From a virus: a stretch of 20,434 bases of DNA. This document shows positions 2,568 to 20,434 of the stretch, piece after piece. Position 1 is the stretch's first letter. Every line of letters starts with the position of its first letter. The position numbers and the translations under genes were made by a program. The stretch is from positions 1 to 20,434 of the IMG/VR virus record IMGVR_UViG_3300018080_000687. One strand, written 5' to 3'. The notes beneath the pieces are model-generated. The model did not search any database and had not been told where the DNA came from. It saw nothing but the letters and a program-made list of their open reading frames with translations.

Positions 2568-3656
2568 ATGAGCGTATCCGGCGCACAGGACTTTTGGGTC
2601 GTCGGTTCACGGCTGTATTTCCAGCAGGATGCGGTCGACAGTGTCGATCAGCCCTGGGTGGATCTCGGTGTGATCCAGACGGCGAACCCCAGTCTCGAGG
2701 TCGAGAAGGTCGAGCTGATGGACTCGGACGGTGGGCTCAAGAGCCTGGTGGACGAGGCCGTCACCGCGATGAACGAGACGTACGAGATCGTCTGCTCCAA
2801 CATCAGCGCGCGGAACCTCGCGTTCCTGATGATGGCGGAGCCGCCCACCTCGTTCACGCAGTCGGCCGCCGAGAAGGAGGTGACGCACGACTGTCCGAAG
2901 GTCGGCGGTCTCGTCAAGCTTCACGACTCGGACACCGACAACACCCTGCTGTTCAACATGCCGGTCATCACGGGCGTCATGTCGGCCGCGGTCTCGGGCG
3001 GTGTGCTCACCGAGAGTGCGATCACCGACATCGTCGCGTCGACGAAGACGATCACGGCCACGGGCGACCTGTCGAGCGACCTGTCGCCGGGTGATCAGTT
3101 CATCGTTCGTCGCACGGGTCTCGCGAACATTCTCAACGCGAAGACGTACACGGTCGTCACGGCGACGTACACGTCGTCCACGGCCATCGTCGTCGTCGAG
3201 ACTCCCGCGGCCGACGAGACCACGATCACGGGCACGATCGTCTACGCGGCGTCCGGCGACTCGGGCACGATCTACGATCAGGACACCGACTGGGAAGTCG
3301 TCAGCCTCGACCGCGGCTTCATCCGCATCATCGACGGTGGCGCGATCTCCGCGGACGGAACCGATGTCGTCGTGATCTTCCAGCTCAACGCGCTCAGCGG
3401 CGAGCGGACTTTCCTGCCTCAGACGATGGAGGACGTGATCAAGGGCGAGGCGCTCATCATGTGGTCGCGTGACAACCACGCCGATCAGACGGTGAGGCAG
3501 GCCCGCGTCTCGATCACGCCCGCGGGCGCCGCGCTGTCCGCGGACGACTTCTCCAACATCACCTTCACGGTGAAGGTGCTGAACGACATCACGGACGCCG
3601 ACGAGCCGGCCGGTCGCGTCCTTCACTTCAAGGGCACCGTGCCCGACGTTTCGTAG
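2568..3656 (+). CDS. Major tail protein (tail tube)
   Basis: ATG 2568 has a full AGGAGG at 2557-2562, the strongest ribosome binding site in the first half of the window, as expected for an abundant protein. The stop codon of the previous gene is part of that site. The product has 362 residues. It begins with GAQDFWVVGSRLYFQ, and residues 25-110 form a beta-rich N-terminal domain. Residues 154-227 read as a separate small beta domain (SPGDQFIVRRTG, then KTYTVV, then STAIVVVETP, then TTITGTIVY). The remainder returns to tube-type strands, ending HFKGTVPDVS. Tube proteins of siphophages often carry one such inserted or appended Ig-like domain on the tail surface. Size, strong translation signal and position before the chaperone genes make this the best tube candidate. 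Confidence 0.8.
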   Translation: MSVSGAQDFWVVGSRLYFQQDAVDSVDQPWVDLGVIQTANPSLEVEKVELMDSDGGLKSLVDEAVTAMNETYEIVCSNISARNLAFLMMAEPPTSFTQSAAEKEVTHDCPKVGGLVKLHDSDTDNTLLFNMPVITGVMSAAVSGGVLTESAITDIVASTKTITATGDLSSDLSPGDQFIVRRTGLANILNAKTYTVVTATYTSSTAIVVVETPAADETTITGTIVYAASGDSGTIYDQDTDWEVVSLDRGFIRIIDGGAISADGTDVVVIFQLNALSGERTFLPQTMEDVIKGEALIMWSRDNHADQTVRQARVSITPAGAALSADDFSNITFTVKVLNDITDADEPAGRVLHFKGTVPDVS

Positions 3657-4476: not shown

Positions 4477-7400
4477 ATGGCCGAAGAACGCATCAGCATC
4501 CTCGCGTATCTCAAGGATAAGGTGAGCCCCAAGGTCGGCAAGATCGCGACCGGGGTGAAGTACCTTGGGAAGACGCTGAAGGTCGTGGGGACTGCTGGTG
4601 CGAAGTCCTTCGGGATGCTCGGCCGTGTGCTCAAGTCCATCAAGGGCCAGATCTTCAACCTTCGCAACCTCATGGGCGGCGCTGCGGTCGGCGTTGTCGT
4701 CAAGCAGTTCGCTTCGTTCGAGCGTGAGATGGCTAACGTCTACACGCTGCTCGACGACGCGCCGGCCCACATGGAGAACTTCGAGAGGGGCGTCAAGCAT
4801 CTCGCCAAAACCACTGGCGAGTCCATGGACGATCTCGCGAAGGCGCTCTTTGATGCGATCTCCGCAGGCGTTGCGCCAGGCGGTGCGATCCAGTTCCTAG
4901 AGAAGGCCGCGAAGCTGGCGATCGCTGGCAACACCGACATCGCTAACTCCACTAAGGGCCTCGTCGCAGTCTTGAACTCGTACAGCCTGGGCGTCGAGCA
5001 CGCTGAAGACGTCAGCGACTCGCTGTTCAAGGCGATGAAGGGCGGCATCACGACCATCGAGCGCATGGCCGCGTCGATGGGCATGATCGCCCCGGCCGCA
5101 GCCCTAGCTGGCATCTCCTACGATGAGATGAACGCGGCCCTTGCGACGATCACCAAGACTGCCATGCCGACCGAGCAAGCGGTCACCGCCTTGCTCAACA
5201 CGATCACCGTGTTGCTCGGCCCGCAGGAGGACTCGCTTAAGCTCGCCGAGCAGCTTGCGAAGAAGTTCCCCGAGCTCAACTTCGAGCTCTCGATCGCCTC
5301 GCTTCGTACGAAGGGGCTCGCGAGGTGGTTCGCCGATCTCGCCACCGCCACCGGCGAAGACGCCGAGGTGATGAAGAAACTGATCCCGAACATCCGCGCC
5401 TACAAGGGCGTCGCGGTCCTCGCCGCGAATGGCGCGAAGGTGCTCGGGCAGATGATCGAGGAGCAAGGTAGGAAAGCTGGCACCACGGCGCGTGAGTTCA
5501 AGAAGGTCGAGATCACGCTGATGCATCAGATGAAGCAGCTCAAGGCAACGTTCCTTGTGCTTCTCATCGAGATCGGGGCGGCGATGAAGCCGTTCCTCGA
5601 GAGCACCATCGGGAAGCTGCGGGCTGCGATCGACTACGTCACAACGCAGCGTGCGACGATCCAGGCGTGGGTCACACAGATCATACGCACCGCAAAGCAG
5701 CTCGTGACGATCGTTAAGACGCTGGTCGCGCAGCTCGATATCGTTCCGGCGCTCGTGAACTCGGTCGTCGTAGGGATGACCATCCTCGTCCGCGTGTTCT
5801 GGGCGGCTCTTCCGATGTTGCTCACGACGATCACGCTCATCGGTAAGCAGCTTGGGTTTGCGCTGATGACCGCGCTCATCGGGGCGAGCAAGGAACGGTT
5901 CGCAAAGGACCTCGCGTCAGGGAACACGACGTGGGCTGGCGAGATCGCCGCGAAGCTCGGCCTCGGCGCGGACAAGGTTGCGGAGCTGCGGGCGTACGGG
6001 AAGGAGATCAACCGGCTCGAGCAGGCGCTTCAGAACTTGATCAGAGCGAAAGAGGCCGCAGCTCGTGCTGGTGCCCCGACGAAGCAAGAACGTGACATGT
6101 ACGACATGGGTCTTCAGCCGACGAAGACCGGGAACAAAGCCGTCGACGAGCAGCTGGCCCTCAACAAGCTGGCTCGCTTCGACCCAGAGGCGCTTGCGCA
6201 GAAGATCGCAACGGCCTCAGCGCGGATCGCAGAGCTTCGTGAGGAGCTCGGCGGGGCCATCACGGACGGCACCCTCGACGCGGACAAGGAACGCTTGCGT
6301 GAGCAGTCGGCCGAGTTCATCAAGGACGTTGGTACAGCCATAGCCGAAGAGCTCCCTGGCCTCACGCACGGCCTCGCCCCAGAGTCACGAGCGGCGATCA
6401 ACCGACTCATGGATATGTGGGGTCAGCAGTTCAACGATCGCCTCAAAGAGGCCGCAGGTAAGGACGCAACTGCGAACCTGATCAAGGTGCTCAAGAAGAC
6501 GATCACCGATGTCTCGGCTGAGGTCGCAGCCACCGGCTCGGAGATGGGTGGTGCGTTCGGAGGGATCTTCAGCGGCTTGCTCGGCGGGGACGACACCGGG
6601 CTGTCTGGACCACCCTCCATCAACATCGAGAAGACCGTCGAGGGGATCAAGGAGCAGTTCACCATCCTCGAGGAGCGGATGGAGCTGTTCCGACAGCGCC
6701 GCGATGAGGCGCGGGGGATGGAAGAGGACGGGGTCATCTTCTCGTCCGAGGCGTTGCGGATGGAGACTGAGGCGCTCGCGAAGATGAAGGAGGAACTCGC
6801 GTCTTTCGACGGGGTCCTCGAGATGTTCATCGGTCGCGCGAACGAAGCTGACGCAGCCACGCTCAAGCAAGAGCTGCGAGACGTTCTGGACAAGCTCGAG
6901 AAGATCCGCAAGGAGATGAAGGACGACAAGCCGAAGGGGAACTTCCTCACGGGGCTTGCGAGCGGGGCGAAGAAAGCGGCCGAGCAGCTTGGGGATCTCA
7001 AGACGCTCGGAGCCGCCGTTGGGGCGAGCCTCGTCAACGATCTCAGCGACTTCTTCGTGAACATGTTCGACAAGGGGTCGCAGTCGTTCGAGGACTTCCT
7101 GAAGACGTTCCTCAAGGGCATCGCAAAGATGATCGCGAAGGCTCTCATCGCGAGGGCGATCATGTCGGCCTTCGGGTGGTCGAGCGCGAACAAGGGTGGA
7201 CGGATGGGGTTCGCCATCGGCGGCCCGGTCCCTGGCCCGGACGTGAACCAGGACGTCATCCCTGCGATGCTCACACCAGGCGAGTTCGTGATCCCTCGGA
7301 AGTCGGTCGAGCATTACGGCGCAGGGGCCATGGAAGCGATCAGGCGTCGGATGTTGCCACGGTCGTCGCTCGCAACGCATGGACGGCCGTCACCTCGTGT

Positions 7401-7590
7401 CGTCAAGCGTGAGTTTGCGACAGGCGGTGAGGTCGTCGGTGATGACGGGCCGATGGTTCAACGCGCAGTGGTCGTTGCGGACGAAGAGTCCTTCGGTCAT
7501 CTGCTTGCGGGAGGACGTCGAGCGATGATGGACTTCTTCGGTACGAACGCCGATGAGATCAGGCGTGTCCTCGGAGGGGCGCCAGCATGA
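4477..7590 (+). CDS. Tail tape measure protein (TP901 family)
   Basis: It starts at ATG 4477 directly after the previous TAA and yields 1037 residues, the longest gene in the window. Residues 1-65 are basic and amphipathic. Residues 70-270 match the TP901-type core: FEREMANVYTLL, then LAKTTGESMDDLAKALFD, then GNTDIANSTKGLVAVLNSY, then GISYDEMNAALATITKT. A long hydrophobic stretch at about 428-468 (VVVGMTILVRVFWAALPMLL) is a membrane-span candidate. Charged helical, coiled-coil-like stretches flank residues 500-640 and 690-790. The C-terminus has the helix SFEDFLKTFLKGIAKMI (about 870-886) and the glycine motif GFAIGGPVPGPD with IPAMLTPGEFVI (about 909-936) common to many tape measures. The usual scale of roughly 0.15 nm per residue would give a tail near 150 nm. 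It sets tail length and is ejected ahead of the DNA. Confidence 0.92.
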   Translation: MAEERISILAYLKDKVSPKVGKIATGVKYLGKTLKVVGTAGAKSFGMLGRVLKSIKGQIFNLRNLMGGAAVGVVVKQFASFEREMANVYTLLDDAPAHMENFERGVKHLAKTTGESMDDLAKALFDAISAGVAPGGAIQFLEKAAKLAIAGNTDIANSTKGLVAVLNSYSLGVEHAEDVSDSLFKAMKGGITTIERMAASMGMIAPAAALAGISYDEMNAALATITKTAMPTEQAVTALLNTITVLLGPQEDSLKLAEQLAKKFPELNFELSIASLRTKGLARWFADLATATGEDAEVMKKLIPNIRAYKGVAVLAANGAKVLGQMIEEQGRKAGTTAREFKKVEITLMHQMKQLKATFLVLLIEIGAAMKPFLESTIGKLRAAIDYVTTQRATIQAWVTQIIRTAKQLVTIVKTLVAQLDIVPALVNSVVVGMTILVRVFWAALPMLLTTITLIGKQLGFALMTALIGASKERFAKDLASGNTTWAGEIAAKLGLGADKVAELRAYGKEINRLEQALQNLIRAKEAAARAGAPTKQERDMYDMGLQPTKTGNKAVDEQLALNKLARFDPEALAQKIATASARIAELREELGGAITDGTLDADKERLREQSAEFIKDVGTAIAEELPGLTHGLAPESRAAINRLMDMWGQQFNDRLKEAAGKDATANLIKVLKKTITDVSAEVAATGSEMGGAFGGIFSGLLGGDDTGLSGPPSINIEKTVEGIKEQFTILEERMELFRQRRDEARGMEEDGVIFSSEALRMETEALAKMKEELASFDGVLEMFIGRANEADAATLKQELRDVLDKLEKIRKEMKDDKPKGNFLTGLASGAKKAAEQLGDLKTLGAAVGASLVNDLSDFFVNMFDKGSQSFEDFLKTFLKGIAKMIAKALIARAIMSAFGWSSANKGGRMGFAIGGPVPGPDVNQDVIPAMLTPGEFVIPRKSVEHYGAGAMEAIRRRMLPRSSLATHGRPSPRVVKREFATGGEVVGDDGPMVQRAVVVADEESFGHLLAGGRRAMMDFFGTNADEIRRVLGGAPA

Positions 7591-8642
7591 CAATCGAGGC
7601 GGTGGAAGGGTTCGATCTCTTCGCGGCGAACGCAGCGTGTCGCACGGAGATAGGCCGACGATGGCCAGGTACGAACACAAGCATCGACGCGTCAGGCCCT
7701 CAGACTGAGGCCGGGCGCTACGGTGGTCTCGCGTGGTCTGGGATCTCGACCAACGAGCTACTTCACACGAGGACGTTCACCGAGGACGACGAGTGGGTGA
7801 TCGGGTTCGCATTCTCGTTCGCGAACCCTGCGCTCGCCGACGAGCTGCGCATCCGGTGGCTGCTTTCTGGGACGACGCAGCTCACGCTCCAGGTGAAGTC
7901 GAACACTGCGACGCAGATCACGCTCGGGTTCTATCGCGGTGTCACGCAGGTTGGGAACGATCTCGTTCTCACGATCAACACTTCGATCACGGATTGGCGG
8001 TACCTCGAGTTCCGCGTCAAGTTCAGCGCGACCGTCGGGGAGGTCGAGGCGTGGACGGACGGCGTTCGCGACTTCCTCGTCACAGGTCTCAACACCGTCG
8101 ATACAGGTGCGGGCGGTTGTGACTCCATCGACATACGGATCAACACCGACGGCGTGACCGGTTGGACGCTTGTGGACGACATGTACATCATGAGCGATGG
8201 GGCGGGCGCGGTCCTCGGTGAGCAGGTCGTTGAGACGCTTCAGCCTGACGCAGACGGCACCACGAGCGGGATGACACCACTGACGGGTAGCGACCACTAC
8301 GCGATGGTGGACGAGGACCAGGCCGACGATGACACGACGTACCTTGAGGCTGACGACGACGATGAACTAGAACTCTTCGACTATCCGGCGCTCTCGCAGA
8401 TCGCGGGTGCGATCGCGGCAGTCGAGGTCGAGACACAAGCTGCGGTGTCCTCGTGGGGCACTCGCAAGATGAAGGCCGTGGTCCGCACGAACTCCACGAA
8501 CGTGAAGGGCGATGAGGAGACGGTCGACAGTACCTCGTACGAAGTGAAGCGTCAGCTGTGGGACGAGAACCCGGAAGCAACGACTCCGTGGACTCCAGCC
8601 TCAGTGAACGCCGCCGAGTTTGGTGCCGAGAGATCGGCCTAA
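7587..8642 (+). CDS. Minor tail protein with jelly-roll (LamG/ConA-like) N-terminal domain
   Basis: It starts at ATG 7587 in an ATGA overlap with the tape measure stop and yields 351 residues. Residues 1-210 have the run of strands of a concanavalin/laminin-G-like sandwich often found in phage tip proteins: EGFDLF at the start, WVIGFAFSF at about 71-79, RYLEFRVKFS near 137, and WTLVDDMYIMSDG near 192. A hinge with GSDHYAMVDED leads to a strongly acidic patch (DDDDELELFD, about 255-264). The C-terminal part, 265-351, has alternating strands and a helix (YPALSQIAGAIAAVEVETQA). Position after the tape measure and the sandwich fold suggest a tip or fibre protein that may bind surface sugar. This is inference; no receptor-binding residues can be named. 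Confidence 0.7.
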   Translation: MTIEAVEGFDLFAANAACRTEIGRRWPGTNTSIDASGPQTEAGRYGGLAWSGISTNELLHTRTFTEDDEWVIGFAFSFANPALADELRIRWLLSGTTQLTLQVKSNTATQITLGFYRGVTQVGNDLVLTINTSITDWRYLEFRVKFSATVGEVEAWTDGVRDFLVTGLNTVDTGAGGCDSIDIRINTDGVTGWTLVDDMYIMSDGAGAVLGEQVVETLQPDADGTTSGMTPLTGSDHYAMVDEDQADDDTTYLEADDDDELELFDYPALSQIAGAIAAVEVETQAAVSSWGTRKMKAVVRTNSTNVKGDEETVDSTSYEVKRQLWDENPEATTPWTPASVNAAEFGAERSA

Positions 8643-8658
8643 GAAAGGAGCTGTACCG

Positions 8659-9210
8659 ATGGAGCATTGGGACCCGAAGGGCCCGAACTCGCTCCCGTTC
8701 GATGGCTTGCCGGACGATCTCTACGCGCTGTTCGTCCAGCCGGTGATCAAGAACGACGAGGACGAGTGGGTACCCCTCGGAAATCGTCGGCGCTTCCGCG
8801 TCGGCAACAAGGTCGTGAATCAGCGCACGACGATCCAGGACGAGCAGCTTGTCCGCATCCAGGAGATCGAGTGCTCGATGCCTCACGCGGCATTCGAGGG
8901 CGCGTTCACCAAGCGTCGCACGGTCGTCCTCGTCGAAGACGACGATGATCTCGACGCGGGTCACATGAAGGTGGCGGAGACCGACGAGACCGTCGTGATC
9001 GCCGACCGCCCGAGTGCGATCAAGCTCGAGACCTGCTACATGCCGACGAAGGACGACCCGGACGTGATCGAGGATGCCTGGCCGAACCCCGTTTTGAACG
9101 GGGCCACGCACATGCGCATCGGCTTCGTTCCGACGTCGCAGTTCGACGGCAAGGACAGGCGGCCGGTCCAGCCGCTCGTGATCGTCCCGATCATCGGAAC
9201 GGAGGGCTGA
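8659..9210 (+). CDS. Hypothetical virion-associated protein, 183 aa
   Basis: I chose ATG 8659 because AAAGGAG at 8644-8650 sits eight bases upstream. A GTG at 8620 would lie inside the previous gene and lacks such a site. The protein starts MEHWDPKGPNSLPFDGLPDD. It has several strand-like segments (LYALFVQPVI, RRRFRVGNKVV, KRRTVVLVEDDDDLD), then MRIGFVPTSQFDG, and ends with PLVIVPIIGTEG. It has many acidic residues and no membrane span or signal peptide. I do not recognise the family. Its place between two structural genes suggests a virion protein. It ends at TGA 9208-9210, three bases before the next ATG. Confidence 0.6.
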   Translation: MEHWDPKGPNSLPFDGLPDDLYALFVQPVIKNDEDEWVPLGNRRRFRVGNKVVNQRTTIQDEQLVRIQEIECSMPHAAFEGAFTKRRTVVLVEDDDDLDAGHMKVAETDETVVIADRPSAIKLETCYMPTKDDPDVIEDAWPNPVLNGATHMRIGFVPTSQFDGKDRRPVQPLVIVPIIGTEG

Positions 9211-9213
9211 TCG

Positions 9214-9681
9214 ATGGCTTCAGGAGTCAAGTTCGTCAGCAACAACTTCCTCGGTGAGACGCTCGGCGGCAACGTCGACATGGACACCGACGTTCTCAAG
9301 ACCATTCTCGTCGACACGACGAATGACATGGACGACGAGGACGACTTCGTCGCGGACATCGGCACGCTCGGCGAGATCAGCGTGTCGGGGTACGTCGGCG
9401 GGCACGGTGGCGCGGGTCGCAAGACTCTTGCGAACCCGACCATCGCCGTCGACGATGGCAACAACCGCGCCACGTTCGCGGCCGACGATCAGACGTGGAC
9501 CAGCCTCGCGTCCGGCGTAACGATCAAGGGTGCGATTCTTCATCGCGCCGGCACGTCGAACGACAACGATGCTCTTTGTATCGGGTTCTGGCCGGCGGAC
9601 CTGCCGACCAACGGTGGCGACGTGACGCTCTCCTTCACCGGAGGCTTCCCGATGCTGCTCACCCGCGCCGCTGGCTCGTAG
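9214..9681 (+). CDS. Small phage structural protein of the beta-barrel 'ADD-x-W' type
   Basis: It starts at ATG 9214, with GGAGGG at 9201-9206, and yields 155 residues. The pattern is one I recognise as recurring in many unrelated phages. An opening F-x-x-N-x-L segment leads into MDTDVLKTILVDTT. Next comes a DIGTLGEISVSGYVGGHGGAGRKTL block. Then DDGNNRATFAADDQTWTSL, and last an AILHRAGTS segment with a closing strand (GDVTLSFTGGFPMLL). Family members are listed as head fibre, decoration or baseplate-associated proteins, with no firmly agreed function. In this position, before a terminator, it would be the last gene of the first tail transcription unit. It ends at TAG 9679-9681. Confidence 0.65.
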   Translation: MASGVKFVSNNFLGETLGGNVDMDTDVLKTILVDTTNDMDDEDDFVADIGTLGEISVSGYVGGHGGAGRKTLANPTIAVDDGNNRATFAADDQTWTSLASGVTIKGAILHRAGTSNDNDALCIGFWPADLPTNGGDVTLSFTGGFPMLLTRAAGS

Positions 9682-9696
9682 CAGACGCTGACTCAG

Positions 9697-9724
9697 GGCG
9701 GGGCGCTTCGGTGCCCCGCCTTTT
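9697..9724 (+). terminator. Rho-independent terminator with UUCG tetraloop
   Basis: Eight perfect pairs (9697-9704 with 9713-9720) continue through a G-T wobble and a C-G pair around a TTCG loop (9707-9710). TTTT follows at 9721-9724. The stem is nearly all GC and the C(UUCG)G loop is exceptionally stable, so this is a confident terminator even with a short T-run. It ends the unit containing the 155-aa protein, so the genes after it need read-through or a promoter I could not find. Confidence 0.9.
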
Positions 9725-9739
9725 CGTCGGAGGAGACTG

Positions 9740-10069
9740 ATGGCTGTCAAGCTGCTGAAGGTTCGATACCGGCCGAAGGTCGCTGAGGTCGTCATCGACG
9801 ATGGTGGCACTGTGCGCACCTTCCACAAGTGGGGTTTCAAAAAGGGTACCGCACTCAAGACGCTCACCGCGTGGGTCACCGAGTGCGTTCAAAGAGCGCG
9901 CGCCGAAGAGGCCGCCGAAGCGAAGCGTCTTGCCGACGAGACGGCGGAGACGAAGGCCGATAAGGTGCTCGCGCTTCTGACGTGGGCGCGTGATAACATC
10001 GATGACCCAACGGTTCGCGAGGGGCTCAAGATCGTAGCTTCTGCGAAGGTTGCGAAGGCGGTGAGCTAA
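9740..10069 (+). CDS. Small helical hypothetical protein, 109 aa
   Basis: It starts at ATG 9740 with GGAGGA at 9729-9734, directly after the terminator, and ends at TAA 10067-10069, overlapping the next ATG (TAATG). Residues 1-40 are basic with short strands (KLLKVRYRPKVAEVVIDDGG). Residues 41-80 form a long alanine- and glutamate-rich helix (RARAEEAAEAKRLADETAET). The last 30 residues are helical and basic at the end. I do not recognise the family. The nearby genes are fibre and tip proteins, so an assembly or structural accessory role is possible but unsupported. Confidence 0.6.
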   Translation: MAVKLLKVRYRPKVAEVVIDDGGTVRTFHKWGFKKGTALKTLTAWVTECVQRARAEEAAEAKRLADETAETKADKVLALLTWARDNIDDPTVREGLKIVASAKVAKAVS

Positions 10070-11334
10070 TGGCCACGATCCAAAGTAACGGGACAGGGGG
10101 CGGCAACTGGTCGTCTGGCTCGTCTTGGAACGGCGGTGTGATGCCTGCGGTCGGGGTGGACGACGCGGTCATCTTGAACGGTGACACGATCACGAAGGAT
10201 ACAGCAGCGCACGCGTCGAAGGACTGCCTGAATCTCTCCATCGACACCGGGGGGATCCTTGCCATCGGGGCAAATAGCCTCGAGTGTACTATGCTCACGT
10301 CGTCGACCGGCTACGGCAAGATTACTGGGACCACCGGGTCTCTTGAGTGCGACCTCAACAGGTGGCGGGGCCAGTGGGACATCCAGGGCACCGACAAAGA
10401 CAACATGTTTGAGATCAAGCGAAACGGTGGGAACCTCGACCTTCACTGGGACGACTCTTACGGCAAGACAGGAACGCGAGTCTTCAGATGGTGCAAGTTC
10501 GACGGTCAGGGCGGCGGGTACACGATGTTCTACGCTTGGAAAGCTGGTGAAACCTTCGAGCACTGCGACTTTAAGGACCACAACCTCTGCGGCTCCACGA
10601 ACACCATCAGCTCCTTCAAGTTCTACGACTGCTACTTCTACGACGCCACCGCCGGTTACGGCGTCAACAGTAACTCGTGGGTCGCGCAGTTCTTCGACTG
10701 CGTGTTCGGCGATGACCGCGATGGAACAGGCGGGCTCACGAACAGTAAGGACTTCCACTTTACTGTCGCTCGCCCATGCATTGCTGAGTGTTTCAACTGT
10801 GAGTTTCACTCTTCCACGGTCACCGGTAATCACGGCGTAGGAACCTTCTTCTACTCCAAGGACCACGATAAGGTCCGAGGCGACTGGCAGTTCGCGTCTC
10901 ACGGCGGTAGGATTCTTCGTTCAACGGACGCCGCGCGAGACGGGACTTATGGGTTGGAGTTCATTCCGGACACCAGCCAAGACGACATGGACGAGGAGCC
11001 GTTGACGTGGCGCCTCGAGTATAAGGTCGAGGCGGGGGACACGATTGACTTCACCGTGGACGTCTTCAACGATGACGGGGATCTGAATCTCTCGGGTGAT
11101 GATCTGGAGATCATTCTCGACCCTGAGAATACCTGGGGTCGTCGTGAGGTAGTCGACGCTGACGACATCAACACTCCCGACCTCGCGTACGAGACGTGGT
11201 ACACCGTCAACTTCACCGGAGGAGTCTGTTCGGGGACTTCTGAGAAGGGCATGTTTACGGTCGAGCTCGTGCTACGCAAGACGGCTACGAACGCAGTCCT
11301 CTACTTCGCGGACCCGGCGTTCACGATTAGCTGA
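10069..11334 (+). CDS. Beta-helix minor tail / fibre-like protein
   Basis: It starts at ATG 10069, overlapping the previous TAA, and yields 421 residues. The N-terminus (GGGNWSSGSSWNGGVMP, then GVDDAVILNGDTI) is the cap pattern seen ahead of right-handed beta-helices in phage and secreted proteins. Residues 40-260 form the helix. An aromatic-x-x-C-x-F motif recurs at about 141, 165, 187, 210 and 243 (WCKF, HCDF, DCYF, DCVF, NCEF), roughly one rung of 22-24 residues apart except for the last gap. Residues 270-421 look like a separate beta sandwich (TYGLEFIPD, WRLEYKVEAGDTIDFTVDV, NAVLYFADPAFTIS), resembling carbohydrate-binding modules. I infer a host-surface-binding role. No catalytic residues for glycan cleavage are evident, and enzyme activity is unproven. 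Confidence 0.65.
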   Translation: MATIQSNGTGGGNWSSGSSWNGGVMPAVGVDDAVILNGDTITKDTAAHASKDCLNLSIDTGGILAIGANSLECTMLTSSTGYGKITGTTGSLECDLNRWRGQWDIQGTDKDNMFEIKRNGGNLDLHWDDSYGKTGTRVFRWCKFDGQGGGYTMFYAWKAGETFEHCDFKDHNLCGSTNTISSFKFYDCYFYDATAGYGVNSNSWVAQFFDCVFGDDRDGTGGLTNSKDFHFTVARPCIAECFNCEFHSSTVTGNHGVGTFFYSKDHDKVRGDWQFASHGGRILRSTDAARDGTYGLEFIPDTSQDDMDEEPLTWRLEYKVEAGDTIDFTVDVFNDDGDLNLSGDDLEIILDPENTWGRREVVDADDINTPDLAYETWYTVNFTGGVCSGTSEKGMFTVELVLRKTATNAVLYFADPAFTIS

Positions 11335-13796
11335 TGGCAACGACAACCACCACGTTTGAGTTCTGCGGGCTTCTCGGGGTTGTCACTGAGACTGAGAAGA
11401 CTGAAGACGATAGCGGGCTTGAGTTCTGTGGTCTAACCGGCCCGATCTCTGGCAACGCAACGGGCGCGGCGGCGCAAGAGGAGGAAGTCGCCCCGCTCGA
11501 CATCGCGGTCGACCTTCCAGCGACGACGACGAGTGGTGGCGAGGCTGAAGAAGAAGTCGCCCCGCTCGACATCGCGTTCGAGCTTCCTGCGATCACACTC
11601 GTGGGAACGCAGACCATCGACGCGTCTCCTCTTGAGCCGGCCGTCGATCTTCCTACCGCAACGTTCGAGCCAGGCGAGATGGAGATCGATGCACCCGAGC
11701 TCAATCCCGTTGTTGAGATTGTGACGGCCGAGGTCACAGGTCACTACACCAAGGAGCTTGCGTCCCTTGAGGTCGAGGCCGAGACCGAGACAGACCCGAC
11801 CTTCGGGCCAGGCGAGGCTGAGATGGAAGCCGCGCCTCTCAACCCAGCGGTCGAGCTCCCCGCGACCTCACTCGACCTCGACGGGATCAACGTCGAGCCG
11901 CTTGAGCCAGCCGTGGAGCTCCCCGCGGGTACCGCGTCAGGCGGGGAGGTCGAGATCGCGGCCGCGCCTCTCAACCCGGCGGCCGATCAACCGGCTGCCA
12001 CAGTGGACGGTGAAGCTGCCATAGACGTCGACCCGCTCAACCCGGCTGTCGACATGCCTGCGGCGACTACGACAGGTCAAGACGGCACTATCACGGCTTC
12101 ACCGGTCAATCCAGCTATCGACCTACCCGCCGGGACCGTGTCACCTGAAGTGAGCGAGATCGTGGCCGCACCTCTCAACCCAGAGGTCGACCTCCCTGCC
12201 GCTGCGCAGTCAGGCGGGGAGAGCGAGATCGCGGCTGCGCCTCTCAACCCAGAGATCGATGTTCCTGCGACGGACCTGGAAGGCTCTCTCGTCGCCGCGC
12301 TCGCGCCCCTTAACCCAGAGTTCGACCTACCGCCTGCGACGGCTGCCGCATCGAGCGCTGGCGTGATCACCGCTGCGCCTGTGAACCCGGTCGTGGACCT
12401 GCCGACGGCGGTCCTCGCGAGTGTGGGCGATGAGCTCAAGATCACGAAGCAAGCGATTCAGGTTCTTGGTCGAGCGCACTCGACCGTGGTCCCGGTCACC
12501 ATCGACGGTGACACCGTGTTGCTCGACCTCGTTCCGCACAACTGGGTCGCTGTCTTCCGCGTCGAGACTTCGTTCTTCACAGACGTGACGATGACCGAGA
12601 CGATGCGAGAAGAGCGAAGCGCGCTTCGTGAGAAACCGCTACGTGCGATCGCCGCGAAGTTCACGGGGCTGAACCGAGATGACTCACGTCGCATCCTGTG
12701 GAACATGGCGAGAGCGACCGCGACGCAGGTACCCGTCCCGCTCTACTGCGATCACACGCGTTTGTCGGCTGCGGCCCTGGTCACAGCGACGACGCTTCAC
12801 GGTGACTTCCGCTGGCGGCGGTTCTTCGCTGGGGCTCGTCTCATCGTTCACACATGGGACGCAGACCAGCGTCCGACGGACGCTGAGATCCATGTCATTG
12901 AGACGATCGCTGCGGATCGCATGTCGGTGACGATCGCGTCACCGGGGCTCACGGCTGGCAAGGCGAAGTACGCCCGCGTGATGCCACTGATCGACTGCGA
13001 CGTGGTGGTCAAGCAAGCGGGGATGGCGTTGACGGTGGACAAGCTCGACGTGAACGTCGGGTTCCTCGAGCTTCCTGGGATCTCCTCGCTCCCCGCTACT
13101 GTTCGAGACACAGAGCCGTGGCTACCGTTCCACGATGGCAGCCCGGTCTTCACGACTCGATCATCGTGGTCCGCATCGCACTCATTCGAGGTCGTCGGAT
13201 CTGTGACGAAGGCGACTGACGGGCGGGCCTCTTTGACTCATGCGATCGGGACGCGACCTCGGTTCATCCACAAGCTACGCGTGGATGCGATGACACGTGA
13301 GGCCGCGTGGGACATCGTCCAGTTCTTCGAGACGTGCCGCGGTCGCTTCCGTCGTTTCTGGTTCGCAGGGCCGATGGCGCTCTGGGACCCGGTCTCGTAC
13401 GATGGTGTAGTCGTGAAGACGACGCGCGTCGGCGACGTGCGGAACCCGCAGGACTTCTGCCGGTACGTTGCGTTCGTTCTGCACGACGAGACGGTCGTGA
13501 TTCGCAAGGTCGCCAGCGTTCATGACAACGGGACGAACTTCCTGTTCGGCCTCGAGGGTGATCTGCCGTCAACCGTGACGACGTCGACCGTTCGCAAGAT
13601 GGTTCCGGCGTGGCCCGTTCGCTTGACGCGAGACGTCATCGCAGAGCGTTGGACGACGGACGAGCTGTGCCGCGTCGAGTTCCAGATGATCGACAACGAA
13701 GACCGCGACGCTCGCGTGACACACCTCGAGGCTGACGAAGACCGCAGCTTGCTCGTAACGAAGCAGACGGTCCGAGTGCTCGGAGCGAAGACATGA
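11334..13796 (+). CDS. Distal-tail-like protein with a 14-repeat N-terminal extension
   Basis: It starts at ATG 11334 (TGATG overlap) and yields 820 residues. Residues 8-36 carry two copies of an EFCGL-x-G motif. Residues 49-365 are fourteen tandem repeats of about 23 residues with the core APLNPAVDLPA. Residues 370-820 are the folded part: VPVTIDGDTVLLDLVPHNW, WRRFFAGARLIVHTWD, then ASLTHAIGTRPRFIHKLRVD, FFETCRGRFRRFWFAGPM and AWPVRLTRDVIAERW. The stretch around the F-x-x-C-R-G-R-x-R-x-F-W-F-A-G core resembles the DUF2460/GTA distal tail (gp12-like) proteins that join the tube to the tip. That match is by pattern and by the following gene order, not by alignment. It ends in an ATGA overlap with the hub gene. 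The repeat extension is far longer than anything expected of that family. Confidence 0.7.
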   Translation: MATTTTTFEFCGLLGVVTETEKTEDDSGLEFCGLTGPISGNATGAAAQEEEVAPLDIAVDLPATTTSGGEAEEEVAPLDIAFELPAITLVGTQTIDASPLEPAVDLPTATFEPGEMEIDAPELNPVVEIVTAEVTGHYTKELASLEVEAETETDPTFGPGEAEMEAAPLNPAVELPATSLDLDGINVEPLEPAVELPAGTASGGEVEIAAAPLNPAADQPAATVDGEAAIDVDPLNPAVDMPAATTTGQDGTITASPVNPAIDLPAGTVSPEVSEIVAAPLNPEVDLPAAAQSGGESEIAAAPLNPEIDVPATDLEGSLVAALAPLNPEFDLPPATAAASSAGVITAAPVNPVVDLPTAVLASVGDELKITKQAIQVLGRAHSTVVPVTIDGDTVLLDLVPHNWVAVFRVETSFFTDVTMTETMREERSALREKPLRAIAAKFTGLNRDDSRRILWNMARATATQVPVPLYCDHTRLSAAALVTATTLHGDFRWRRFFAGARLIVHTWDADQRPTDAEIHVIETIAADRMSVTIASPGLTAGKAKYARVMPLIDCDVVVKQAGMALTVDKLDVNVGFLELPGISSLPATVRDTEPWLPFHDGSPVFTTRSSWSASHSFEVVGSVTKATDGRASLTHAIGTRPRFIHKLRVDAMTREAAWDIVQFFETCRGRFRRFWFAGPMALWDPVSYDGVVVKTTRVGDVRNPQDFCRYVAFVLHDETVVIRKVASVHDNGTNFLFGLEGDLPSTVTTSTVRKMVPAWPVRLTRDVIAERWTTDELCRVEFQMIDNEDRDARVTHLEADEDRSLLVTKQTVRVLGAKT
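11478..12428 (+). repeat. Fourteen tandem coding repeats, about 69 bp each
   Basis: Fourteen units of 22-24 codons encode [E/A]-I-x-A-A-P-L-[ND]-P-x-[VIF]-[DE]-[LIV]-P-A, followed by a variable Gly/Ser/Thr/Glu spacer. The first two units share 24 identical bases (beginning 11484 and 11553), exactly 69 bases apart. CCTCTCAACCC recurs in at least four units, near 11836, 11967, 12170 and 12240. Unit 5 is the most degenerate. Exact spacing by whole codons and local DNA identity indicate growth by duplication inside the gene. Confidence 0.9.
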
Positions 13797-14593
13797 CGAC
13801 GCCACTAGTAGGCACCGAGAAGGAGCGCATCTTTCTCTTCGAGTTCGAGGCCGATGGAGTGGTCACCAAGTACACCGACTGGGACACGCCGTTTGGCGAC
13901 TACACCGCTACGCCGACGATCGACCTCAAGATCTCCCCGATCACAGCTCTCCTCGCCGAGACGGTTCACACGATCACCATGCCGCTTGACGAGATGACTG
14001 CCGCGATTTCGAGCGGCTCGCCTCATGCGGTGGTGACGGTGACAGTCAAGGAGCTCTATCGCGGGAGCCGCCCGGTCATTCTCACGACGTTCATCGGTGA
14101 GATCGGTCGTGCGGTTCGCAACGCGCAAGGACGCAAGGATCGTGTGAAGTTCGAGATCAACAACGAGAAGTACCGGTTGAAGGCGGCGATGGGGTTGCCT
14201 GCGAACCATCAGTGTGTGTGGACCTTCGGTGACACGAAGACGTGCGAGTACGACGCAGTGGCCGTTCGCGAGACTGGTACACTCACCGTCGTTGACTTGA
14301 CTCATGTGACAATCTCGGGGCTCTCTGTGCCGCCCACTGTGGACGCGACGTACTGGGTTCGTGGTCGGGTCATCTACGAAGGCGTCGAGCTGACGATACG
14401 CAAGTGGGACGAGGCAGACGCGTTCCATCTTGTTCGCCGACCTCCGGACTCGTGGGACGGGCAAACGGTCACCGTTCAACCTGGGTGCGACAAGAGCCGT
14501 GAAACATGTGAGGACCGATGGAGCAACCTTCTCAGGTTCGCTGGCGCAGGCTACGCCATCCCCGCCTATCACCCCGTGATCGAGAATCCGTAG
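13793..14593 (+). CDS. Tail tip hub protein with four-cysteine (Fe-S) motif, GTA gp13 / lambda gpL-like
   Basis: It starts at ATG 13793 (ATGA overlap) and yields 266 residues. The first 130 residues are beta-rich (ERIFLFEFEADG, PTIDLKISPITA, VVTVTVKELYRG). The diagnostic part is C-terminal: NHQCVWTFGDTKTCEYD (Cys 141 and 151), then QPGCDKSRETCEDRWSN (Cys 232 and 239) and RFAGAGYAIPAY. This matches the end of the DUF2163/BR0599 group, to which the GTA hub protein belongs. Lambda gpL carries an Fe-S cluster on comparable cysteines, so I infer a cluster here. The protein would form the ring connecting the distal tail protein to the central hub. Its end overlaps the peptidase gene by 76 bases. 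Confidence 0.8.
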   Translation: MTTPLVGTEKERIFLFEFEADGVVTKYTDWDTPFGDYTATPTIDLKISPITALLAETVHTITMPLDEMTAAISSGSPHAVVTVTVKELYRGSRPVILTTFIGEIGRAVRNAQGRKDRVKFEINNEKYRLKAAMGLPANHQCVWTFGDTKTCEYDAVAVRETGTLTVVDLTHVTISGLSVPPTVDATYWVRGRVIYEGVELTIRKWDEADAFHLVRRPPDSWDGQTVTVQPGCDKSRETCEDRWSNLLRFAGAGYAIPAYHPVIENP

Positions 14594-15051
14594 AGGAACG
14601 TCTCGACGAGGTGTTGCGCAGCTGGCTGGGCACACCGTACATGGCAGGGCAGTGCGCAAAAGGCGGTGGAGTAGACTGCGTTCGTTTCGTCTCCGCAGTG
14701 GTAGACGAAATGTGCGGCTGCGTGCGAGTGCCGATGGTCAAGCTCCCACAGGACGTAGCGTTCCACCAGCCTGCGACAGCTCGACGGGCGTGGCTCATGT
14801 TTCGTAGAGCATATGAGCCCGTCGAGGAGATCAAGAACGGTGAGGTCGAAGCTGGTGATCTCATCGTGATGTCACAAGGCACGATCGCAGGACCGGGACA
14901 CGCCGCGATGATCGGGCCTCGAACAGGGTCAGTGTGGCACTCCACAGGCCGTGAAGTGGAGACCGTTGGACTCATCAGCTTGTTCCAGCCTCGCGTGCGT
15001 CTCTACGGGGTGTACCGCATGAAGGACAAGGACCGATGGCTAGCGTCATAG
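14518..15051 (+). CDS. Tail-tip NlpC/P60 cell wall peptidase (lambda gpK / GTA gp14-like)
   Basis: The product has 177 residues. The catalytic triad of the NlpC/P60 family is visible: Cys54 in GVDCVRFVSA after the typical LGTPYMAG, His128 in GHAAMI, and His141 in WHST. It would cleave peptidoglycan peptide bonds during DNA entry. ATG 14518 is chosen because TGAGGA lies just upstream (14509-14514) and the next start in frame is GTG 14611, which would remove the charged helix before the core. The cost is a 76-base overlap with the hub gene, long for this cluster. The same AGGACCGATG context starts the next gene. It is the third gene in the GTA-like order hub, peptidase, megatron. Confidence 0.85.
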   Translation: MEQPSQVRWRRLRHPRLSPRDRESVEERLDEVLRSWLGTPYMAGQCAKGGGVDCVRFVSAVVDEMCGCVRVPMVKLPQDVAFHQPATARRAWLMFRRAYEPVEEIKNGEVEAGDLIVMSQGTIAGPGHAAMIGPRTGSVWHSTGREVETVGLISLFQPRVRLYGVYRMKDKDRWLAS

Positions 15052-17738
15052 TGCCGATGATCATCAGCATGGCAATCTCGTATCTCGCGTCGAAGTTCTT
15101 GGGTCCCGACGACAAGGACCCACCACCTTCGATGAAGGACGATAAGCCGACGACGACTGCCACCCGTGGCGCGTTTGTCCCATGGCTCATGGGCGTGCGT
15201 CGCGTCGGCCCGATCTTCGCGTGGGTCGGCAGTCGCTATCGGTCGACTGAGAAGGCTCGAGGCTGGAAAGGTGGCGACGACCCGAACGAGGACAAGAAGC
15301 AGAAGGTGTACTACGAGTACGGCTGGCACCTTCTCTGTGTCGGTCCAGCCGTTAAGCTGTGGGCCATTTACGAGAACGGGAAGAACCTCCTGCCGTGGCC
15401 GCTCGATTCGGTGGGCTACCCCAGCGGCACAACGATCAACCTCCTGCCGAAAGGCAAGTTCGACATCTGGTGGGGCGAAGGCAACCAGCCTGCTAACTCG
15501 TATCTCGGGCAGGTTGGCAAGATGGGCCTGCTCTCACGGTGGCCGTTTATCTGCTCGATCGTGTGGAGACCAAAACGTCTCGGGCTCTCGCCTGTCTGGC
15601 CGTTGCTCGACTACGTCGTAGAGGTTCATCCTGACTACGCAAGCCAGGTGAGCGAAGACGGCGACTGGCTGGTTGGAACGCAGTCGCTGAAGGGCTATCA
15701 GAAGAACATCAAGTCCGTTGTGGCTGGCGCGGCCGGCGTCGGCTACATCAAGGTAAAGCCGATCAGCGGGAAGTACCTCATCAACTCAACGATGACGATC
15801 GAGGTGATCGGGAACCATGCGAGCAACAACGGGACGTACACGATCACACACACGTCGAACGTCAACTCGGGATACAAGACAGTCTCAACGAAGCTGTTCG
15901 TGAGCGCTGCGATCCCCGCGTCGACAGGCAAGGTGGGGTACGTCGAGTTCTACGAGTTCGATCACAACTCAGGGGCAAACCCCGCGTATGTCATCGATCA
16001 GCTCCTCTTCGCTACGTACCCGCACGGACTGGCTCTCAACCCAGATCACTTTGACATCGCGTCGCTTGACGCGCTGGCTCTCGCTCTAGGAGCCGCAGGT
16101 GAGAAGCTCTCGATCACTTACCTCGCGACCGACGGTCAGGAAGCTGAGGCCATCCTTGCGGCGATAATGCAAGATTGCGGCATCGCGTTCCGATGGAACT
16201 CAGAGAGCGGCCTGTGGGAATTCAAGGTGATCCGCGCTGAGACGCATCAGCCTGTCATACCTGCGGACTTGCTGCTCCCACCGTTGCCTGAGATCAACAC
16301 CGTGTTCGAGGTCGTGCGACCGATGGACAAGATGGTCTTCGAGTTCCCGAACTGGGGTACTCGCTTCCGCATGATGACGCTCGTCGTTGACGACGACGCC
16401 TTGGCCGAGGCTCGCGGGCAGATCCGCACGAAGAAGATCCGGATCCCCACGGTCGTCGACATCGACACCGCCACGATGGTCGCCGAGCGCCGTGGTCAAG
16501 AGGCGCTCGGTGTTGTCACCGCATGGAAGTTCACAGCGCAGGGCGAGGCTCGACTCGTCAAGCCCGGCGCGTCGATCTTCGTGGACGGGTTTGACGACCC
16601 GATGCGAGTGATGTCTGTGGACCTAGCCCAGAAGACCGGCAAGGTTGTCATCGAGGCTGTCACGGACTACTACTCCGTGGATCCGTCAGGTGCGCCTACG
16701 GTCATCCCTGGTACCTCGGACGAGACTGAGATCGAGATCGAGGAAGACGACCAGTGGGAGCCGATCGAGATGCCGCCTGACGCAGGTGACGCCATGGGTG
16801 CGTACGGGGGCACCGCGACTCGACCCGCGGTGGCGTTCCCCGCGGTTCGCGGCGGCGAGGGTGTAGACGGGCATCTCGTCTACGCCTCAGAAGACGACGT
16901 GACGTTTGAGTGTATCGCGTCGTTCGAGTCGGTGCAGTCTGGCGGGTTGCTCATCGACGAGATGACGGCGACGCAACCTACGATGATCGAGACTGGCCCG
17001 ACGTTCACCGCGCTCGGCGTGGACATCGCAGACGTTGCGCAAGATCTCAGCTCAGACGTCGCTGGCTGGCGTCGCGGGAAGCAGGTTGTGTTCTGTGGCT
17101 CTGAGGTGATGTTCGTGCGTGAGATCACCGCGATGGGCGGGGATGTGTATCGGCTCGACGGGATCATCCGCGCGCGTCTCGGTTCGGACATCGAGGCTCA
17201 CGTCGCCGACGATGAGGTCTACATTTGTAACTACAAGGAGATCCCGGTCTTCACGGATCTCATGTTCCGACCCGGCGGCACGGTGTACTTCAAGCTCGTG
17301 CCGTACGGTGACACTCTCATCGCCATCGATGAGCTCACGTCTCGTTCGCTCACGATCCGTGGGAACACGATCGTCCCTGCTCCAGTGACGGGACTCTCGA
17401 ACGATCGGCATACGCTTGCGTTCGACGGGACCGAGTCGCCTGTGTTCGTGTGGGGCTACAGGTTCGGGCGCGAGCCTTCTTCAGGTTGCGGCGCGCAAGT
17501 CGCCGGCGAGCCAACCGCGCCGTCTGTTGTTGAGGGTGTGTTCCTCGTCACGGTAACCGACGTCAGCGATGTGACGAAGCGAGTGGTCACTGTCACCGAA
17601 CCGACGTGGACGTACACGAACGCTGACCTACTCTCAGACTTCGGCGGCGCGGCGCCGTCTTCGTTCAAGCTGCTTGTCGAGCACGTGCGCGGCGGCAAGG
17701 GATCCGGCTCTTCCACCATCACGATGACGAAGCTGTAG
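15036..17738 (+). CDS. Central tail tip / host specificity protein (lambda J, GTA 'megatron'-like)
   Basis: It starts at ATG 15036 with AAGGA upstream, overlapping the peptidase by 16 bases, and yields 900 residues. The hydrophobic start (MASVIVPMIISMAISYLASK) and the segment RGAFVPWLMGVRRVGPIFAWVG (about residues 44-65; family pattern: proline, then an R-R-V-G-P strand) are typical of these proteins. Residues 170-225 and 305-560 hold the hub-type core, with ANPAYVIDQLLF near 310, DCGIAFRWNSESGLWEFKV near 379, and MVAERRGQEALGVV near 480. Residues 227-305 look like an inserted beta domain. An acidic linker lies at about 562-585 and FnIII-like strands follow at about 790-900. Lambda J reaches roughly 1130 residues, so this is a smaller member. 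It would form the tip spike and contact the host envelope. Confidence 0.8.
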   Translation: MASVIVPMIISMAISYLASKFLGPDDKDPPPSMKDDKPTTTATRGAFVPWLMGVRRVGPIFAWVGSRYRSTEKARGWKGGDDPNEDKKQKVYYEYGWHLLCVGPAVKLWAIYENGKNLLPWPLDSVGYPSGTTINLLPKGKFDIWWGEGNQPANSYLGQVGKMGLLSRWPFICSIVWRPKRLGLSPVWPLLDYVVEVHPDYASQVSEDGDWLVGTQSLKGYQKNIKSVVAGAAGVGYIKVKPISGKYLINSTMTIEVIGNHASNNGTYTITHTSNVNSGYKTVSTKLFVSAAIPASTGKVGYVEFYEFDHNSGANPAYVIDQLLFATYPHGLALNPDHFDIASLDALALALGAAGEKLSITYLATDGQEAEAILAAIMQDCGIAFRWNSESGLWEFKVIRAETHQPVIPADLLLPPLPEINTVFEVVRPMDKMVFEFPNWGTRFRMMTLVVDDDALAEARGQIRTKKIRIPTVVDIDTATMVAERRGQEALGVVTAWKFTAQGEARLVKPGASIFVDGFDDPMRVMSVDLAQKTGKVVIEAVTDYYSVDPSGAPTVIPGTSDETEIEIEEDDQWEPIEMPPDAGDAMGAYGGTATRPAVAFPAVRGGEGVDGHLVYASEDDVTFECIASFESVQSGGLLIDEMTATQPTMIETGPTFTALGVDIADVAQDLSSDVAGWRRGKQVVFCGSEVMFVREITAMGGDVYRLDGIIRARLGSDIEAHVADDEVYICNYKEIPVFTDLMFRPGGTVYFKLVPYGDTLIAIDELTSRSLTIRGNTIVPAPVTGLSNDRHTLAFDGTESPVFVWGYRFGREPSSGCGAQVAGEPTAPSVVEGVFLVTVTDVSDVTKRVVTVTEPTWTYTNADLLSDFGGAAPSSFKLLVEHVRGGKGSGSSTITMTKL

Positions 17739-18426: not shown

Positions 18427-20434
18427 ATGAGGAACGCACTACCTACGCTGGACCTCGGTGATCATCCGATCCTCGAGCCGCTGAGCGACGCGACGAGAGA
18501 GGTGCTCTCGCCGCTCCAGCTTCAGCCCACCGACTTCCTCCACATCGCCACGGATGCGAACGGCGAGCACTTCGAGATGCGTGCCATCCGCGCACGCTTC
18601 CTTGATGTCGACGAGAACCCCGCCACCTTCGAGCCGGGGATCCTCATGACCACCTCCGACGGCGAGCACGTCGTCGAGACTGGGTCCGCTTCGTTCGGGG
18701 CCCGCTACGACTTCTGGAAGCGCATCCCTGAGTGCCGCGAGAAGGAGGGCCTTTCCTGGAACGAACGCGGGCGCCGCTGGGTTGCCGGCACGGACTACTC
18801 CTGCGTTGTGGTCCACCACAGCTGGCCAGCCACACGCATCATCTTCGCCGACGAGACCGCCGAGCTGCTCTACACGATGCTGCTCAAGCGTTTCATGCGG
18901 CAGACGCTTCGCGCCAAGCTCCAGTCCGAGTTCAAGATCGAAGGCACCGTCCCGGCCATGCCGGACGACTACTTTCCGGACGACCTTCGCAAGCATCCGG
19001 CAGCGGATTACCAGAAGACCGCCGCGATGATGAGCCTCGGCCAAGAAGGCACCGCGCTGTTCATGGATCGGGGCACTGGCAAGACGTACGTCAGCGTCGA
19101 TCGCATCTGCCTCGAGGCGCACCGCGCTCAGAAGGGTCGCATGCCTGGCGAGCCCGCGCACATGAGCCGCGTCCTGATCATCGCTCCGCTTCAGGTTCGT
19201 CTCAACTGGCAGCAGGAGTTCGAGAAGTTCGCATGGGTCGGCGGCAAGGTCACCGTCCTTCGCGGCGGCAAAGAGAAGCGCATCCAGATCCTGACTCACG
19301 CGATCCGCACAGAAGAGGACTGCGCCTTCTCAGCTGTCATCGTCTCGTACGACACCGCGACCCGCGACATCGACTACCTCAGCAAGCTCCAGTGGGACCT
19401 CGTCGTTCTCGACGAGTCGCACCGCATCAAGTCGACGCACACCAAGAGGTGGCAGCAGATTCGCAAGCTGCGCAACTGCTCACGCCGCCGTCAGATCCTG
19501 ACTGGTACGCCGTACGCGAACACGATCTTCGACCTCTACTCCCAGCTCGAGTTCCTCGGCAAGGGGCAGAGCGGGTTCTCCAGCTTCAAGGCGTTCGTTC
19601 GCTTCCACGGGAAGTTCGAGAAGCAGAACGGTCGCGACGCTCTCGTCGGGATCGACAACATCCCGCTGATGCACGAGCGGCTCGCGCGGCTCTCCTTCCA
19701 GATCACGAAGGAAGAGGCCGGCCTCAAGCTGCCGCCCAAGGTGTACGACACCGTCGAGGTCGAGATGACTCCCAAGCAGCGTGAGTACTACGAGAAGATG
19801 GCCACGCAGCTGGCAGTCGAGATCGAGGACATGCTGAGCGGCGCGATGGACCAGACGGCGAACAAGGCGATGACCGCTGAGAACATTCTCACGAAGCTCC
19901 TACGCCTCGCGCAGATCACGAGCGGTCACGCCGTGTGGAGCGCCACGTACAACGACGAAGGCGAGATGCTCACGCCTCGCACGGTCGAGCAGATCGACAA
20001 GGACCGCAACCCCAAGATCACCTGGCTCGTCGAGCAGCTGAAGGAGGAGCTCGCTGAGGATCCTCTGGCGAAGAAGATCGTGTGGGCCGTCTTCGTCCCC
20101 GACATCATCGAGATCGAGCGAGCTCTTAAGGCCGCCGGCATCAAGGCCGTGACGTACTACGGCGCGACGAGCCAGGCGAACCGTGAGGCCGCCGTCGAGG
20201 ACTTCAACAACGACCCGACCGTCCGGGTGATGATCGCGAATCCGCAGACCGCGGGTGAAGGCCTCAACCTCCTCGGCTACGACCTGAAGAACGAGGAGGA
20301 GTCGCTAACCTACTGCGACCATCAGATCGTCTTCAGCGCCAATTGGAGTCACGTGCTGAGGGCGCAGCTCGAGGATCGCGCGCATCGCCGCGGCACGCGC
20401 TGCCCCGTCCAGATCACGGACCTCGTGATCAGCA
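18427..20434 (+). CDS. SNF2-type DNA helicase/translocase, 3'-truncated
   Basis: It starts at ATG 18427 with AGGAG at 18415-18419 and stays open to the window edge (669 codons seen). The helicase motifs are in order: motif I DRGTGKT (Lys219), motif Ia VLIIAPLQVRLNWQQEFEKF (about 253-272), motif II DESH (329-332), motif III LTGTPYAN (358-365), motif IV KIVWAVFVPD, motif V QTAGEGLNLL (about 606-615) and motif VI QLEDRAHRRG (647-656). This is the SNF2 branch of superfamily 2, which uses ATP to move along duplex DNA. The first 200 residues match no domain I know and contain a KFM/CREK-type mixed region. Motif I reads DRGTGKT rather than the usual D-x-G-L-G-K-T. In phages such genes usually start the replication/early block, consistent with the promoter and terminator upstream. 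Confidence 0.88.
   Translation, partial: MRNALPTLDLGDHPILEPLSDATREVLSPLQLQPTDFLHIATDANGEHFEMRAIRARFLDVDENPATFEPGILMTTSDGEHVVETGSASFGARYDFWKRIPECREKEGLSWNERGRRWVAGTDYSCVVVHHSWPATRIIFADETAELLYTMLLKRFMRQTLRAKLQSEFKIEGTVPAMPDDYFPDDLRKHPAADYQKTAAMMSLGQEGTALFMDRGTGKTYVSVDRICLEAHRAQKGRMPGEPAHMSRVLIIAPLQVRLNWQQEFEKFAWVGGKVTVLRGGKEKRIQILTHAIRTEEDCAFSAVIVSYDTATRDIDYLSKLQWDLVVLDESHRIKSTHTKRWQQIRKLRNCSRRRQILTGTPYANTIFDLYSQLEFLGKGQSGFSSFKAFVRFHGKFEKQNGRDALVGIDNIPLMHERLARLSFQITKEEAGLKLPPKVYDTVEVEMTPKQREYYEKMATQLAVEIEDMLSGAMDQTANKAMTAENILTKLLRLAQITSGHAVWSATYNDEGEMLTPRTVEQIDKDRNPKITWLVEQLKEELAEDPLAKKIVWAVFVPDIIEIERALKAAGIKAVTYYGATSQANREAAVEDFNNDPTVRVMIANPQTAGEGLNLLGYDLKNEEESLTYCDHQIVFSANWSHVLRAQLEDRAHRRGTRCPVQITDLVIS

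Follow-up and report, generated by a model that had tools for sequence, protein, structure and literature searches.

A distal tail protein with an N-terminal array of acidic 23-residue repeats in a fragment of an uncultured phage

Siphophages are thought to add parts for host recognition as decorations on their distal tail (Dit) proteins. A 20,434-base fragment of an uncultured phage, the whole of which is called the window here, encodes a siphophage tail module that includes an 820-residue Dit protein (11334-13796, plus strand) with an array of short repeats at its N-terminus. This locus raises the question of what kind of Dit carries the array, whether the repeats are volatile DNA or an old protein module, and what such an array might do at the tail tip.

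The repeat array and the Dit core

The array, delimited by autocorrelation and by reading of the sequence, occupies 11469-12431 on the plus strand (about residues 46-366). Its units follow the consensus APLNPAVDLPA at a spacing of 21-26 residues, and the motif starts at residues 53, 76, 98, (124), (145), 167, 188, 211, 233, 256, 279, 302, 324 and 348. Twelve units have a clear motif, one near residue 122 carries a 2-residue insertion (APELNPVVEIV) and one near residue 145 is degenerate, its motif gone, giving about 13 repeats. BLOSUM autocorrelation compared with shuffles yields z = 9.4 at lag 23, far above chance, with harmonics at lags 45 (z = 7.9), 46 (z = 5.4) and 68 (z = 5.3). Together with the reading frame, this periodicity agrees with the location and description of the array given in the original prediction; of the fourteen repeats that it had counted, the 12 clear units stand and the two near residues 122 and 145 are weak. 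Also as predicted, the array is acidic and free of cysteine: it holds 61 Asp/Glu vs 2 Lys/Arg, a net charge of about -59 per 328 residues, and is rich in Pro, Gly, Ser and Ala, with variable spacers.

The array is preceded by a leader read from the sequence (residues 1-45; 11334-11468, plus strand), in which we noticed a further short duplication, FEFCGLLG / LEFCGLTG, that holds all the cysteines found ahead of the core. Another near-identical pair of motifs stands one on each side of the core: ITKQAIQVLG just ahead of it (residues 370-379; 12441-12470, plus strand) and VTKQTVRVLG at the extreme C-terminus (residues 808-817; 13755-13784, plus strand). None of the other loci compared for this feature has the pair. 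We also looked for an internal start from which the core could be made on its own and found none: within the first 450 residues a Shine-Dalgarno-like sequence accompanies just one in-frame start, at residue 164, inside the array.

The core itself (residues 385-792; 12486-13709, plus strand) matches the two-domain family PHROG 1082, annotated as “tail assembly protein”, over its full length with an E-value of 1.4e-34. A single-sequence search of the PDB returned 8vjh_B at E 0.023, and hhalign of the core against ten aligned family members, the window not among them, gave E 2.4e-18 over 388 columns. The family profile with the window included matched 8rk3_U at 8e-151 and 8vjh_B at 2e-96. We take 8vjh_B to be the distal tail protein of phage chi and 8rk3_U to be gp49 of Pseudomonas phage JBD30, the latter from a match in length. 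The 8rk3_U entry is titled “Virion structural protein” and has 567 residues, which is the length of gp49 in the published description (PMC11445458). Judged by these profile matches, the C-terminal 435 residues are a Dit core of the chi/JBD30 type, and we infer from its full-length alignment and its homology with JBD30 gp49 that it would be a double Dit forming a trimeric ring, with two tail-tube-like domains that each carry an OB insertion.

Fusion of the repeats to a distal tail protein, as originally predicted, is thus borne out by the PHROG 1082 match. The proposed placement in the gp12/Dit group fails, as DUF2460 scores 13.9 bits vs the Pfam cut-off of 30.4, below GTA gp12 membership, and the protein is chi/JBD30-like instead. 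The accompanying statement that such proteins are normally single compact rings without an extension is wrong for the chi/JBD30 family, because terminal decorations are common there: JC01, MP29 and YuA have an N-terminal extension of about 165 residues, in R16L and V7 the extension is C-terminal, and RHph_X2_30, RcCWillis and CN1 have none. The N-terminal domains of ~165 residues are present in only part of the family and are therefore not defining; the window Dit lacks them, and the repeat array fills their position. The array showed no match to the Dit core family, and none of 13 sampled Dit-family loci carries such a repeat. When diverse Dit cores were aligned, divergence was too great for a degenerate pattern search. 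Peptide-pattern searches of IMG/VR found no close relatives of the array, the Dit core or the tape measure protein, and neither did tblastn against phages and plasmids, where the low-complexity filter may hide the repeat.

Profile searches placed the gene in the order tube, tape measure, cassette, Dit, hub, NlpC and megatron. The tail tube protein (2568-3656; NF052337) and the tape measure protein (4477-7590, plus strand; PF10145, TIGR01760) are followed by a five-gene cassette (7587-11334, plus strand), and the Dit gene by the baseplate hub protein (13793-14593, plus strand; TIGR02218/BR0599), an NlpC/P60 peptidase (14518-15051) and a megatron/tip protein (15036-17738, plus strand), whose C-terminal part is GTA-megatron-like. 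The Dit gene thus lies between the tape measure and hub genes, as expected for a chi/JBD30-type Dit. Because it abuts or overlaps both neighbours by a few bases, translational coupling with them is likely. The hub and peptidase reading frames as called overlap by 76 bases (14518-14593), and the peptidase gene probably begins downstream of the position called. Directly downstream of the tail genes we also observed a SNF2-family helicase (18427-20433, plus strand), with NCBIfam matches to the SCO1167-type helicase and weaker ones to defence helicases, e.g. ZorD and DrmD.

In JBD30-like phages, the slot between tape measure and Dit is the site of the side-fibre genes. We tested the relation of the cassette to the JBD30 fibre proteins and found no gene matching phrog_687, the JBD30-type fibre family, at 7587-11334. 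A profile match within the cassette identifies a PHROG 644 protein (9214-9681, plus strand).

Age of the array at the DNA level

In the original prediction the array looked actively expanding or contracting, with a copy number that may tune reach or receptor binding. Tandem Repeats Finder reported no DNA array at the repeat region, because the unit copies have diverged in DNA: pairwise identity between clear units is mostly 0.4-0.7. At residues that units share, the same codon is used 296 times vs 303.4 expected from the phage's own codon usage. The amino acid pattern is therefore kept while synonymous sites are random, which indicates selection on the protein and argues against ongoing expansion. 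By these codon data the array is an old module that has been conserved as protein, as opposed to a DNA repeat still undergoing slippage.

Units 1 and 2 are the exception. A 24-base block in unit 1 (11484-11507, plus strand) recurs identically in unit 2 (11553-11576, plus strand) at a distance of 69 bases, exactly as had been predicted, and an exact repeat of this length was reached in 1 of 500 synonymous recodings. These are the only units that share an unusually long DNA block, and this is the sole sign of recent duplication or conversion; one later event of either kind is plausible. Near-identical DNA copies, the mark of a recent variable-number tandem repeat, are confined to this pair. The block is what favours a volatile repeat changing its copy number by slippage, but the chance-level codon agreement across all unit pairs and the blank Tandem Repeats Finder result speak against it. 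So does the one comparable pair of loci, L050 and L083 (see below), which have proteins 95% identical and equal counts, the same 15 units in each. We therefore consider slippage a very improbable account of the array.

Similar repeats in other uncultured phages

We scanned IMG/VR with a degenerate 3-unit DNA pattern derived from the window and removed low-complexity frames. Repeat reading frames of 583 residues and 15 units were found in L050 (3394-5142, minus strand) and L083 (3287-5035, minus strand), and one of 415 residues and about 6 units in L100; a second pattern identified L137, whose frame (6490-7506, plus strand) encodes 338 residues and 10 units with a period of exactly 24. Matches to a relaxed 3-unit DNA pattern were mainly PLPLPL or PLGMPLGM low-complexity frames and were rejected after translation. 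L135 (an Actinoplanes contig), L015, L136 and L138 were likewise discarded as chance low-complexity frames. No isolate phage searched has the repeat.

Like the window array, the repeats of L050/L083, L137 and L100 have many units, lie in phage structural regions and follow the same period and hydrophobic pattern. The periods of this PL...LP repeat among the window and the matching contigs are 23, 24 and 22/45. In single profile-profile comparisons the window matched L050 at E 1.3e-5 and L137 at E 4.8e-4, scores that were reached by none of 100 column-permuted controls in either case. An HMM of the window unit detected L050, L083 and L137 at 30 bits vs at most 14 for shuffles; it did not report L100, which is connected to the group through the L050 profile (17.5 bits vs 8.4 for shuffles). 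Reverse HMM searches were near the shuffle level (11.9 vs 10.3 with L137, 10.5 vs 10.4 with L050), and a combined repeat profile scored below shuffles (9.2 vs 13.4). Since the loci were chosen with a window-derived DNA pattern, agreement at the P, L and LP positions is in part a product of the selection and similarity there is inflated; unit number, exact period and gene neighbourhood were left free by the search pattern. The window array thus shares a period of 22-24 and a profile with these repeats, in loci that were selected by pattern and with weak reverse searches.

The acidity of the window array is not common to the other repeats. Its acidic spacers contrast with Thr/Ala/Ser-rich, nearly uncharged spacers in L050/L083 and L137 and with Pro-rich, slightly basic ones in L100. 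No PHROG 1082 protein was detected in the L100 and L137 records by the same search that finds JC01, R16L and V7, so the Dit fusion is specific to the window among the loci found. As in the window, a PHROG 644 gene lies near or next to the repeat gene in L100 and L137, the only two records long enough to judge; L050 and L083 are uninformative here because they are 5-kb fragments. None of 36 control contigs contains PHROG 644, and the PHROG 644 neighbourhoods of six isolate phages have no such repeat.

In the 583-residue proteins of L050 and L083, a 23-residue PL...SLP repeat alternates with another repeated segment (VHYRRAVGQRGYQYYGPVSYS), and their gene is surrounded by head-tail adaptor and tail genes. 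In L137, residues 264-334 match PHROG 33619 and the C-terminal end of the protein is a short repeat of another kind (AAEDRIFDVAAEDRIYEV), which suggests that such phage proteins collect several short-repeat types.

The repeat is not described in the profile libraries or the literature covered by our limited search, and the module is apparently undescribed. We propose, tentatively and with rather more doubt than confidence, that the 23-24-residue PL...LP repeat is a module that moves between proteins of uncultured phages and was grafted here onto a Dit ring as three long arms at the fibre-anchoring site. If true, its reuse across unrelated phage structural proteins would make it a new building block, unrecognised by the Pfam and PHROG libraries searched, and would allow arm length and binding in uncultured phages to be approached from sequence in a testable way.

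Possible roles of the array and comparison with known systems

Structure prediction gave no usable model: AlphaFold reached pLDDT 32 for the whole 820-residue protein from a single sequence and pLDDT 37 for the array with its relatives, where weak strand assignments were unreliable. BLAST and the HMM libraries returned no convincing match to the array, and Pfam and PHROG revealed neither a carbohydrate-binding nor a fibre domain there (the PHROG match being at chance level only, E 2.5). In JBD30, gp49 forms a trimer, with two tail-tube-like domains contributed by every chain; domain I (residues 2-74) is a long loop that wraps the tail side fibres, domain II (residues 75-174) stretches perpendicular to the tail axis, and these N-terminal domains are retained in the virion (PMC11445458). 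Because the window array occupies the position of domains I and II, three repeat arms at the tail tip are the best reading, by analogy. The original prediction that the repeats project from the tail tip thus draws support from homology, since in JBD30 the corresponding terminus points away from the tail and anchors side fibres.

The product of the gene is the distal tail protein, the ring-former between tail tube and baseplate, in which ~13 acidic 23-residue repeats stand where JBD30 gp49 has its fibre-wrapping and projecting domains. Three copies of the array, one per ring subunit, would project sideways from the tail tip, if the trimer seen in JBD30 applies here. Their most likely role would be that of a long, multivalent stalk, in direct contact with the host surface or as a holder for the fibre proteins encoded just upstream; we estimate the length of a 320-residue array at about 100 nm fully extended and several nm as a compact solenoid. 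The repeat itself is old and kept as protein, as the codon data show, and the other loci support its use in different phage structural proteins. To this reading as a whole, a Dit ring whose arms of ~13 repeats project as a multivalent stalk or fibre holder, we assign an even chance of being right.

The main rival, possible and clearly less probable, is a flexible and mostly unstructured acidic tether that docks tail-tip proteins, such as those of the upstream cassette, and makes no host contact. Strong acidity, richness in Pro, Gly, Ser and Ala, spacers of variable length, the precedent of domain I as a long loop around fibres (PMC11445458) and the lack of a confident AlphaFold fold are all compatible with a tether. 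However, the hydrophobic PL.P.VDLP pattern of 23 residues is kept despite fully diverged codons, which suggests a repeated fold, and the related arrays are hydrophobic or Thr-rich and not acidic. A role confined to assembly, as a chaperone or propeptide removed or buried in the virion, would suit the N-terminal position, but the corresponding domains of the JBD30 relative stay in the virion (PMC11445458), and we regard it as improbable.

Known decorated Dits bear on a further possibility, that the array is a self-sufficient receptor-binding adhesin making many weak contacts to host surface polymers. Evolved Dit (evoDit) proteins carry a carbohydrate-binding module (CBM), and Dits with additional binding domains of this sort are well established among phages of Gram-positive bacteria (PMC9128512); a galectin-like domain is documented, and modelled as a decoration, on the LSH1 Dit (PMC13243795), and the documented insertion domain of the R4C Dit has been speculated to bind host components (PMC10276861). 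In contrast, the array has no carbohydrate-binding family, and most cell surfaces would repel so acidic a protein segment unless cations acted as mediators. We consider an adhesin of this kind rather unlikely.

Compared with the evoDits, the window protein is likewise a Dit ring protein with an extra module that possibly serves host recognition, and it may work like them. In the evoDits of Gram-positive phages the module is a globular CBM that is mostly inserted centrally, whereas the window has an N-terminal array of short repeats; we do not file it among the evoDits because no CBM is recognised. The BACON-domain repeats of crAssphage (PMC6949934), compared by description, are also tandem protein repeats in a phage protein; they are repeats of a full domain, in contrast to the 23-residue units here. 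The closest likeness is to JBD30 gp49 (PDB 8rk3) and the chi Dit (PDB 8vjh), with a core homologous over the full double-Dit length, the same gene order from tape measure to hub and an extra region before the core. Where these have N-terminal domains I/II of ~170 residues, the window Dit has a repeat array of ~320 residues, and the phrog_687 side-fibre genes of JBD30 have no counterpart found in the window cassette. By sequence and position, then, the window Dit belongs to the chi/JBD30 distal tail family, with its N-terminal domains replaced; as a decorated Dit it falls into an ordinary category and is modestly novel, and the repeat module is the interesting part.
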